Positions 60,723 to 64,000 of a DNA stretch of 64,000 bases are shown piece after piece. The stretch covers positions 62,001-126,000 of the forward strand of contig NZ_FMAT01000001.1 of assembly GCF_900094805.1 (NCBI RefSeq), given 5' to 3'. The position numbers and the translations under genes are program-made. Source of the DNA: Arthrobacter sp. NIO-1057. Its GTDB lineage: Bacteria > Actinomycetota > Actinomycetes > Actinomycetales > Micrococcaceae. Within the stretch, counting starts at the first letter, position 1. Each line of letters opens with the position of its first letter. A model generated the notes under the pieces. The model had not been told where the DNA came from. It made no database searches and saw only the letters and a list, made by a program, of their open reading frames with translations.

Positions 60723-61388
60723 CTAGTCGACCAGTCCGCCCTGATAAGCAATCAACGCCGCTTCAACACGATTGCGCACCTTGAGCTTGAGCAAAATCGA
60801 GGTCATATGGCCCTTCACGGTGGCGGGCGTGAGCACCAGTTCATCCAGGATTTCCGAATTAGAACTTCCCGCTCCCACAAGCGCCAAAACATCATGCTCT
60901 CGGGGTGTCAGCTGCTCGATCAAGCCGATGGCTCTCGCGCGCCGATCATGATCTACACTGCGAAACTTGTCCACCAGACGCTTGGCAATACGCGGCGACA
61001 GCGCCGCAGCTCCATCGGCCACAGAGTAGACTCCTCGAATCAACTCTTCGGGGTCAGAACTTTTGAGCATAAAACCTGCAGCCCCACCGGACATGGCGCG
61101 ATCAATATACTCTTCCTCGCCAAAAGTTGTCAGGATGAGCACCTTGGCCGTCGCAGACTCGGCGAGAATCCGCTCCATCGCCCCGAGCCCATCAAGCTGC
61201 GGCATGCGAATATCCATCATGATCACCTCAGGTTGCAGGCGCGATGCCAACTCGATAGCCCTCAGTCCATTCTCCGCTTCACCCAAGATTTTTAATCCAG
61301 GATCACTAGCCAAGATGGTGCCAAGCCCTGCGCGGATTAACGGGTCATCATCAACCAGTAGGAGGCCTATCGGTAGTCCTGTGCTCAT
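60723..61388 (-). CDS. NarL/LuxR-type response regulator
   Basis: 221 residues. The receiver domain has acidic pocket residues in LLVDDD and phospho-acceptor D59 in VIMMDIRMP, then Thr and Lys of the switch. The LuxR helix-turn-helix (LTPREHDVLALVGAGSSNSEI and LVLTPATVKGHMTSIL) lies at about 158-215. The histidine kinase gene ends 9 bases upstream, so they form one operon and pair. Confidence 0.95.
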   Translation of the reverse strand: MSTGLPIGLLLVDDDPLIRAGLGTILASDPGLKILGEAENGLRAIELASRLQPEVIMMDIRMPQLDGLGAMERILAESATAKVLILTTFGEEEYIDRAMSGGAAGFMLKSSDPEELIRGVYSVADGAAALSPRIAKRLVDKFRSVDHDRRARAIGLIEQLTPREHDVLALVGAGSSNSEILDELVLTPATVKGHMTSILLKLKVRNRVEAALIAYQGGLVD

Positions 61389-61397
61389 ATTCCGATC

Positions 61398-62747
61398 CTA
61401 AGGTGCAGGGTAAAGATGCTCAGCGGATCTGAGCACATCGTCGGTGAAACAAAGGCGGAACATTTCACTGCCGAAGTCCAGCACCCCGGTACGTGCCGCA
61501 TAGTACCGACACTGACCGCTGGCAGGTTGTTGCGATTCATCGATGACCGGAAGCGGCTGATCCAAGCCTTGGGCCTGAACGTGCTGTGCCACTTCCGTTC
61601 GGGTCATCCCCGGCATGAGTTGTTGGAAATCTGCCGGGCTCAAGGCTGTTGCCCGGAAGGTCGCCAGCTGCAAGACATATAAACACGCAACCATAACGGC
61701 CACCGCGCACGCTGGAACAAGTACCAATAGCCAGCGCGAGGTCTGTTTGCGTGTCGTGGTGGCCGATGCGGATTCTCGCCGGTTCCGACTGTGCTGCACT
61801 TCGGCGATGACATCAAAGTAAGCCTCGGAATGGTTCACACTCAACGAGCCGCCGTACCGTTCCAGGACTTCTCGCAAACCACTCAACCCCGACGCTCTGG
61901 GGCGCTGCGGTACTGGCTGGCCCTCCAGCGGATTACTGATCCGCACACGGACGGGCTGGTGGAGCGTGTCAATATTAATTCTCACCGGTTGTTGTGGAGC
62001 ATATTTGGCAGCGTTCGTCAGCGTCTCCTGTAGGACCTGGCGCATCACAGCACCTGTTTCGGCATCGGCCGCATCGATCAGCGCCGGACCGCTGAGCTGG
62101 TAGTTGATCTGCATGCCACGATTCCGCGCCTGATTGATCAGGCGATCCACCGACTGTCCAGAAAGAACCAACGATGCCTGTTCATCCGGTTCACGGAGCA
62201 CCTCAATGATTTCGTGTAAATGCTCAACAGCTTCATCCGCCTGAGCACGGATACGCACTGCTTGCTGATATGCCTCGGAGTCCTTGTCCAAAGACACTTG
62301 TAAACCGCCGGTGGACAAGGCCAATAACGCCATATCGTGACCCAGCTGGTCATGCATCGCCTCGGCTATTCGAGCGCGCTCACGTAGCTTGGCTTGAAGT
62401 TCTAGATGGTGCCGCTCCTGTGCACGAAAGGCTAGCGTATTGGCTCTGGCCCGCCCCGCCCACCAGGGCAACAGCACAAAAAGGACCACCCCGGTACCGA
62501 TATTCAAAGCGAAGGTCAGCGCACTGACATGTGCCGAAAGCAGCAAGCTCACACCCGACGCGAGCGCTCCAACAGCCAGGGCGACAATGCCGTGTAAGGC
62601 AGAAGCAACGTAACGGCCTGCAAAAAAGCTACCCACGGCTGCAACAGGCGCCAGCACCAACCACGCCACACTGGTAGAAATCGGAAGCAGGTAGGCGCTC
62701 AACGCGAGAAAGATCAACAAGAGGATCTGCTTGAGCTGGGTAGTCAT
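61398..62747 (-). CDS. NarL-type sensor histidine kinase with C-terminal membrane helix and external tail
   Basis: 449 residues from ATG 62747. The N-terminus has about five helices. The HisKA_3 dimerisation box holds phospho-acceptor His in AEAMHDQLGHDM (about H132), followed by an HATPase domain with N-box ETLTNAAKYA (about 245) and G-box SGLSGLREVLERYGG. Unusually, after the kinase comes one more helix (about 339-364) and a tail of 85 residues with LMPGMTRTEVAQHV, as in BamE/SmpA-type domains, plus two Cys. That tail must be outside. ATG 62756 is an alternative; no ribosome site is clear. Confidence 0.9.
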   Translation of the reverse strand: MTTQLKQILLLIFLALSAYLLPISTSVAWLVLAPVAAVGSFFAGRYVASALHGIVALAVGALASGVSLLLSAHVSALTFALNIGTGVVLFVLLPWWAGRARANTLAFRAQERHHLELQAKLRERARIAEAMHDQLGHDMALLALSTGGLQVSLDKDSEAYQQAVRIRAQADEAVEHLHEIIEVLREPDEQASLVLSGQSVDRLINQARNRGMQINYQLSGPALIDAADAETGAVMRQVLQETLTNAAKYAPQQPVRINIDTLHQPVRVRISNPLEGQPVPQRPRASGLSGLREVLERYGGSLSVNHSEAYFDVIAEVQHSRNRRESASATTTRKQTSRWLLVLVPACAVAVMVACLYVLQLATFRATALSPADFQQLMPGMTRTEVAQHVQAQGLDQPLPVIDESQQPASGQCRYYAARTGVLDFGSEMFRLCFTDDVLRSAEHLYPAP

Positions 62748-62882
62748 GGTGAACATGCAACTGAAAATCTGCTCGGGCAGACACCGACCAAAGTAGGGGA
62801 TCACCAGTGGGTAATGCCGACTAAATTCCGGTGTGCCCGGCCGCGCCCAATGACAGGGTTGAAACAACAAAAGAAGCACACC

Positions 62883-63800
62883 GTGATCACCCTTGAATCG
62901 CTGAGTAATCACTACGGAACTACCCGAGCTGTCAACCAATTGAGCGTTGAGATTCACCCCGGAAAAGTCACCGGCTTCTTCGGGCCCAACGGAGCCGGGA
63001 AAAGCACCACCATGCGGATGATCCTTGGACTAGATGCTCCCACCAGTGGCCAAGCATTAATTAACGGGCAACGCTATGACCAGTTGACCTACCCCATGCA
63101 CACCGTGGGCGCGCATATTAGTGGCACGGCCGGACACCCCGGGCACACTCCACGAACATTCCTGCGCGCACTGGCCCAGAGCAACCGAGTACCCCAACAA
63201 CGCGTTGAGCAGGTCCTCGAAGAATCCGGACTCAGCAGCGTGGCAACCAAACGCATCAGGGGATTCTCCCTCGGCATGCGCCAATGTTTAGGTATTAGTG
63301 CCGCATTGCTCGCTGACCCCGACGTGCTCATTCTCGATGAACCGATGAATGGACTGGACGCGCAAGGAATCGCCTGGATTCGCCAGCTGATGCGAAACCG
63401 TGCCGATCAAGGCGGAACGGTATTCGTCTCCAGCCACCTGATGAGTGAAGTGCAGCAAGTGGCAGACCAACTCATCCTGATCGGCCGTGGGGAACTGATC
63501 GCCAACGCCACCACCCAGCAGCTGATCAATGAAGCCACCGAACAGGTCGTGACCGTACGCTCGCCACACGCCTCGGCGCTCGCCGGCCTACTCACCAGTC
63601 GAAATCTCCAATTCAGGGTGGTGGATGAACAGCTGATAGAAGTCATCGGCCTTGGACTTCAAGCAACCGGTGCATTGGCCTTTGCAAACGGCATCGAACT
63701 GCATGAATTAAGTGCAACACACGGGTCGCTGGAATCCGCATATAACCAGCTAACCCAAGAGTCAATGGAATTCTCGGCATCATCAGTAGAAAGAGGCTGA
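62883..63800 (+). CDS. ABC exporter ATP-binding protein
   Basis: 305 residues. Walker A is FGPNGAGKSTTMRMIL, the signature is the variant FSLGMRQCLGISAALL and Walker B is VLILDEPMNGLD, the DrrA/BcrA-like drug-resistance group. The GTG at 62883 gives the family N-terminus MITLESLSNHYG; ATG 62850 in frame is an alternative. It is divergent from the two-component system, which is likely its regulator, and is followed 4 bases on by the permease gene. Confidence 0.92.
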   Translation: MITLESLSNHYGTTRAVNQLSVEIHPGKVTGFFGPNGAGKSTTMRMILGLDAPTSGQALINGQRYDQLTYPMHTVGAHISGTAGHPGHTPRTFLRALAQSNRVPQQRVEQVLEESGLSSVATKRIRGFSLGMRQCLGISAALLADPDVLILDEPMNGLDAQGIAWIRQLMRNRADQGGTVFVSSHLMSEVQQVADQLILIGRGELIANATTQQLINEATEQVVTVRSPHASALAGLLTSRNLQFRVVDEQLIEVIGLGLQATGALAFANGIELHELSATHGSLESAYNQLTQESMEFSASSVERG

Positions 63801-63804
63801 ACCA

Positions 63805-64000
63805 ATGAAATCACTAGATCTTGCTGAATCGAACTCGGCTCATGGCCTCTCAGTGCTACTGGCTACTGCCCGGGCTGAAATCACGAAATTCTTCGGACTA
63901 CGCTCGCTGACGGGACTTTATGTGGTCGGTCTCGTGGTTACGGTAGGCCTAGGGTGGTTGCTGGGAGCTAGCGCCAAAGCCAGTGGCGAAAACGGTATAG
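63805..64000 (+). CDS. ABC exporter permease (3' truncated by window edge)
   Basis: The ATG at 63805, with AGAAAGAGG upstream, opens a frame that runs off the window. The visible 65 residues show an amphipathic start (LLATARAEITKFFGLRSL) and a first membrane helix (GLYVVGLVVTVGLGWLLGA), as in ABC-2 permeases. It is the expected partner of the ATPase 4 bases upstream. Confidence 0.85.
   Translation, partial: MKSLDLAESNSAHGLSVLLATARAEITKFFGLRSLTGLYVVGLVVTVGLGWLLGASAKASGENGI

Follow-up and report, generated by a model that had tools for sequence, protein, structure and literature searches.

The window, a stretch of 64,000 nucleotides from Arthrobacter sp. NIO-1057, carries towards its end a complete open reading frame on the minus strand (61398..62747) for a sensor histidine kinase of 449 residues, which we assign to the AbsA1 type from the reading of the frame, its Pfam domains and a comparison with AbsA1. 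The start codon kept across the genus is the ATG at 62747 and the stop codon lies at 61398-61400; two alternative starts are also open, one an ATG further upstream at 62756, the other a GTG that would give a protein of 519 residues. The kinase core comprises a HisKA_3 dimerisation and phosphoacceptor domain (residues 123-188; 62184..62381, minus strand), identified by Pfam and by alignment columns that include an invariant H132, and a HATPase_c domain found by Pfam (residues 235-308; 61824..62045, minus strand). Both score above their Pfam cut-offs, as the complete kinase core described here by an earlier note would lead one to expect; AbsA1 has the same two domains, and no further Pfam domain passed its cut-off anywhere in the 449 residues. 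The HDxxxH motif of the kinase belongs to a class that we take to be phosphatase-capable. In at least 90% of 48 alignment rows, N272 (within residues 266-280) stands where the Asp of the ATPase G1 box would be, and the usual G1-box Asp is presumably missing from this kinase family.

The kinase is flanked on one side by a NarL/AbsA2-type response regulator on the same strand (60723..61388, minus strand), with Response_reg and GerE domains in Pfam and sequence similarity to AbsA2. On the other side lies a divergent ABC exporter ATPase (62883..63800, plus strand), 52% identical over 307 positions to the ATPase beside absA1, followed by the start of an ABC permease (63805..64000, plus strand) that runs past the window end; in full (L110:4806-5600) the permease has 264 residues and shares 40% identity with the ABC-2 permease encoded next to absA1. 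The divergent exporter that the earlier note described as DrrA/BcrA-like is present, and its ATPase gave good matches to the lantibiotic-protection and DrrA models, yet under their curated cut-offs. Its start codon is GTG in the window and ATG in eight relatives.

To describe the membrane topology, we combined an AlphaFold model with a crude hydrophobicity scan and the distribution of charge. AlphaFold secondary structure predicts four N-terminal membrane helices (residues 2-23, 26-46, 50-70 and the start of 76-147; 62454..62744, minus strand), and all three approaches point to a C-terminal transmembrane helix, TM5 (residues 339-361; 61665..61733, minus strand), which the model extends over residues 339-367. 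The scan itself found three N-terminal segments and one C-terminal segment, against four and one in the model. Its last segment (residues 340-358) had the highest mean Kyte-Doolittle value of the four, 2.72, so the segment is membrane-like, and the second crossing of the membrane after the kinase core, as the earlier note had read it, is predicted by both scan and model. We found more Lys and Arg on the cytoplasmic than on the outer side of TM5 in all 39 proteins compared, with a mean net charge of the flanks of +4.1 on the cytoplasmic side versus –0.7 on the outer side. From this positive-inside pattern, together with the two Cys that follow, we read the tail as probably external and disulfide-bonded. 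Along the whole chain, AlphaFold (mean pLDDT 83.7) places the N-terminal helices, the core, helix 339-367 and a small alpha-alpha-beta-beta-beta domain in that order, a whole-chain pTM of 0.57 making the relative placement of the domains unreliable.

The tail (residues 362-449; 61401..61664, minus strand; characterised by sequence, AlphaFold, Foldseek and VIA-align) comprises 88 residues, external by prediction, in line with the roughly 85 first estimated, and its two Cys are C413 and C433. A tail of this kind occurs in 9 of the 18 genomes of the genus and, in a scan of a genome collection, in 52 of 79 related loci (from the best 80 of 428 relatives), including Micrococcaceae, Ruaniaceae, Brevibacteriaceae, Streptomycetaceae, Pseudonocardiaceae and others. 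Across the 89 rows that we compared (L052 counted as tailed and L074 as without tail), the protein either ends shortly past the ATPase domain or continues into one strong helix and a two-Cys tail. A tree of the core domains, built from 79 of the 89 rows with 10 near-copies or extra rows left out, requires at least six gains or losses of the tail, which suggests that the tail was gained or lost repeatedly or that the core tree is imperfect. Within the window's own genome, a search with the tail profile gave no useful second copy, one further place scoring E 0.35. It is next to impossible that the tail arose by a frameshift or through accidental fusion with another gene: all 10 aligned genes carry it in frame, as does G034 of the same family, and the fusion is common to the 52 loci and to AbsA1, so we ruled out an artefact of this kind, which the earlier note had named as a possible flaw.

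Conservation within the tail bears on what the tail might do. G380, C413, Y416 and C433 are invariant in 48 of 48 aligned sequences (alignment A4 holds 48 of the 52 tailed loci plus the window kinase; alignment A5 holds 47 of the 52 plus the window kinase). Exactly two tail Cys, 16-21 residues apart, are present in all 62 tailed rows, three of which are one gene seen twice; with the count restricted to the last 75 residues, 61 of the 62 rows have two. Such regularity could be taken as the mark of a thiol/disulfide redox sensor acting through C413-C433, but so invariant an external pair of Cys suits a structural disulfide at least equally, and we consider redox sensing very improbable. It is also unlikely, to a lesser degree, that sensing is intramembrane, through the four N-terminal helices, with the tail setting only topology, stability or dimer geometry. 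The loops between those helices are short in the AlphaFold model, as this would have it, and tail-less relatives exist: kinases of the DesK/LiaS/NarX (HisKA_3) class, which have the core domains and the NarL-type partner in common with the window kinase, usually end after the ATPase domain, and 27 of the 79 related loci (best 80 of 428 relatives) stop there, whereas the window kinase adds TM5 and the tail. The four invariant tail residues, however, argue against a merely positional role, as does the occurrence of a similar domain on other small proteins, described below.

An inverted layout of this kind, whose novelty the earlier note implied, is already known from AbsA1 of Streptomyces coelicolor. 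In the passages that concern it, PMC3881020 and PMC9739842 describe five helices, four of them N-terminal and the fifth C-terminal, and a C-terminal domain outside the cell, a topology established with eGFP fusions by McKenzie and Nodwell in 2009. In its passage on AbsA1, the 2013 review (PMC3881020) calls the signal unidentified. The S. coelicolor absA locus (SCO3225/SCO3226) is part of the gene cluster for the calcium-dependent antibiotic and acts as a repressor of antibiotic genes, according to the relevant parts of PMC9739842 and PMC6457490. Reading by eye the open reading frames listed around the window kinase, we noticed no antibiotic cluster.

For a direct comparison, we located the absA locus in a Streptomyces genome with the absA primers printed in PMC6457490. 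One primer matches 3 of 392 Streptomyces genomes, with two mismatches in each, and in the first of these genomes a further three absA primers match perfectly. The regulator open reading frame at the recovered locus has 669 bp, the length given for absA2 in the section of PMC6457490 on these genes. At its C-terminus, the recovered AbsA1 (571 residues) has a hydrophobic segment and then a tail whose Cys pattern is the same; next to its gene lie the regulator gene and, divergently oriented, those of an ABC ATPase and permease. We found that the window kinase is 33% identical to AbsA1 in the core and 43% identical in the tail (over 103 residues, with no gaps), while the window regulator is 46% identical to AbsA2 over 214 residues. 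The best match of AbsA1 in the window's genome is the window kinase. In the reverse direction, AbsA1 is the top match of the window kinase in all three Streptomyces genomes by summed segments and second in two of the three by best single segment, where another tailed kinase exceeds it by 1.3 and 2.6 bits. Of 39 tailed kinases placed in a tree, 13 have a divergent ABC gene, and all of these, including AbsA1, lie to the same side of a branch supported at 98/95; this tree is unrooted and restricted to hand-chosen tailed rows (32 of the 52 tailed loci plus 7 further rows). From the pairwise identities, the common gene order and the supported branch, we conclude that the window kinase is, on sequence comparison, a member of the AbsA1 family and has the AbsA1 architecture in another actinobacterium. 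The AbsA1/AbsA2 system has the helix layout, HisKA_3 and HATPase_c domains, NarL-type regulator, divergent ABC ATPase and ABC-2 permease as in the window; AbsA1 differs in its longer N-terminus and linker, the window kinase being the shorter protein. We found no use of "AbsA1-like" or similar phrases in the open-access literature.

We then considered the fold of the tail, for which the earlier note had proposed a resemblance to BamE/SmpA. Modelled alone by AlphaFold (mean pLDDT 81.5, pTM 0.74), the tail is led in Foldseek by BLIP and BamE: 33 of the first 34 PDB matches are BLIP, the BLIP-like BLP, BamE or chain E of a BAM complex, one entry bearing just the title "a membrane complex", and the remaining match is an AtaA complex at rank 31. 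The best Foldseek match has E 2e-3 with probability 1.00, and no match reached E 0.001. In VIA-align, Z was 7.7 to BLIP residues 74-163 (2g2w_B and 3e2k_C; for 2g2w_B, rmsd 4.1 over 77 aligned residues with 25% identity), 7.0 to the BLIP-like protein of Streptococcus mutans and 5.0-6.7 to the BamE chains listed, save one at 4.0; several other BLIP chains gave only 4.4-4.9. A profile of eight tails searched against the PDB also ranked BLIP first (E 0.01), and a larger tail profile gave weak BLIP matches, the best at E 0.024, weaker than with the small profile. Thus, the resemblance to BamE stands at the level of fold, nearer BLIP, and does not stand at the level of sequence: the Pfam BamE model (PF04355) matches the window protein at E 0.17 with 12.2 bits, below its curated cut-off of 23.2, and, with E allowed to reach 1, picks up 4 of 49 tails, so we rejected BamE membership by sequence. 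The tail is likely to belong to the BLIP/BamE fold class, nearer BLIP, the modelled similarity being moderate (Foldseek E 2e-3, Z below 8).

BLIP/BLIP-I and BamE have, like the tail, two short helices followed by three strands, and BLIP also has disulfides. BLIP has two repeats, to half of which the kinase tail corresponds, and the tail, unlike BLIP or BamE, is fused to a kinase by a membrane helix; an inhibitor or barrel-assembly function is not implied by the likeness. PMC12419801 (2025) describes BamE-like immunity proteins that are anchored in the membrane, evolve rapidly and contain a hairpin of two helices plus three strands; its sections on these proteins mention neither such a domain on kinases nor AbsA1. 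In the open-access literature we did not find a BLIP/BamE assignment of the external domain of AbsA1.

The tail domain also occurs outside kinases. In an evenly drawn phylum set, at least 9 of 396 genomes have a tail match at E up to 0.01, and in a class set at least 29 of 296 do at E up to 0.001; both are lower bounds, since at most 13 candidates per genome were scored in the phylum set and at most 16 in the class set. Among the class-set matches listed, 43 of 46 lie in open frames of at least 476 residues, which fits kinases. Three phylum-set matches are, by eye, small non-kinase proteins with a similar two-Cys domain and one hydrophobic segment. Tail-profile matches and reading of the loci place such proteins at L186:1498-2067 (minus strand), within L185:1489-2145 (minus strand) and at L187:1336-1716 (plus strand). 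Those of G197 and G785 consist, by eye, of one hydrophobic segment and the domain, and that of G1029 has an N-terminal DUF2510, one hydrophobic segment and then the domain (tail-profile E 5e-15, 1e-3 and 2e-10 for G197, G785 and G1029, respectively). Since it is found on small proteins other than kinases, the tail appears to be an external module that can be attached to different proteins.

Is the tail tied to the exporter? Nine of the 18 genus genomes carry orthologues of both the kinase and the ATPase; in the remaining 9 neither was found, and we found only an ATPase paralogue at 45-47% that is present in all 18; the nine genomes may form one lineage and do not count as nine independent events. 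An ABC ATPase lies immediately divergent from the kinase in 6 of the 52 tailed loci and is missing there in 44, and in the other 2 (L050 and L097) the gene lies at a contig edge; a neighbouring exporter is therefore not required for the tail. A second pair is present in the same genome (G000:C11:32543-35559), with a match to a HisKA_3 kinase and an ABC ATPase 1.5 kb off; this ATPase is 46% identical to that of the window and is found in 18 of 18 genus genomes. The tail profile search found no tail copy at the C11 kinase, so linkage to an exporter needs no tail.

These observations bear on a reading in which the tail docks on the divergent ABC exporter, or on another envelope protein, and the kinase reads exporter activity with no free ligand. 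Bce-type systems offer a model for such flux sensing. Kinase and exporter co-occur and have a common promoter region, and the solved BLIP and BamE entries are, by their PDB titles, mostly protein complexes, as docking would lead one to expect; however, where the upstream sequence is available, 44 of 50 tailed loci lack a divergent ABC ATPase next to the kinase gene, and in the permease, at only 264 residues, a large external domain was not seen by eye. We regard docking as a minority possibility, at perhaps one chance in a handful.

The region between the two operons (135 bp, 62748-62882) is well conserved within the genus and contains a putative response-regulator operator, CCGAC-CAAA-GTAGG (62784..62797, plus strand), recognised as a repeat in shared promoter regions. 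The repeat YGAC-N4-GT[CA]R is found in seven of eight representative shared promoter regions, some with approximate limits, at a shuffle chance of 1-5% each; the strict form (GTCR) is found in six of the eight and is absent from the window. The YGAC-N4-GT[CA]R repeat has two copies in G047, three in Occultella and one at the absA locus, and the S. rochei region (L092) has neither form. This test is post hoc, the motif having been read from the same sequences, and genome-wide the pattern showed no enrichment (2 places versus 2+3 for the reversed control). Binding of AbsA2 at the absA1 promoter was not seen in the experiments described in the relevant part of PMC6457490, which cites the same in vitro result from elsewhere. 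We treat the palindromic repeat as a candidate operator only. Even so graded, its presence across loci, together with the co-occurrence in 9 of 18 genomes, strengthens the link between kinase and exporter.

Taken together, we think it somewhat better than an even bet that the locus encodes an AbsA1-family two-component system that controls the ABC exporter, with the tail as the input domain for a ligand or partner. The computation supports the architecture, conservation, fold class, gene order, co-occurrence and family on which this reading draws. Under it, the four N-terminal helices would anchor the kinase in the membrane, and the cytoplasmic core would phosphorylate the adjoining NarL-type regulator and, judging by HDxxxH, probably dephosphorylate it too. 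The fifth helix would lead the chain outside to the BLIP/BamE-fold domain, probably stapled by a C413-C433 disulfide, where either a partner protein or a ligand from outside the cell (peptide, lipopeptide or fragment of the cell wall) may bind; the change would be transmitted through TM5 to the core, and the regulator, at the palindromic site in the shared promoter, would reset the transcription both of the operon that encodes it and of the divergent exporter genes. We infer the disulfide, the ligand binding, the direction of signalling, the operator and the control of the exporter, and our confidence is lowered by the absence of the strict operator form from the window and by the uneven fold scores among BLIP chains. 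The tail might, as was suggested at the outset, sense an envelope-active compound.

More speculatively, and with odds well short of even, we postulate that a disulfide-stapled BLIP/BamE-fold ectodomain on a C-terminal helix could be a general actinobacterial receptor module: it would be the true input of AbsA1-type kinases, would also occur alone on small membrane-anchored proteins, and would recognise secreted peptides or proteins, whether the cell's own or those of rivals, thereby switching exporters and antibiotic programmes. A likely BLIP/BamE fold for the external domain of the AbsA1 type, together with a kinase-exporter cassette outside Streptomyces, makes concrete tests of the AbsA1 signal feasible, and if the tail is a receptor it would provide a handle for switching silent antibiotic clusters.

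Finally, a promoter scan of 62600-63000 gave no sigma-70-like site and one terminator-like site versus 0.8 expected. The sequence TAGCATG stands directly before the kinase ATG in eight of nine sequences, with TTGCATG in the window, an arrangement that would fit a leaderless transcript; a leaderless transcript is reported for absA1 in the part of PMC6457490 that deals with that gene.
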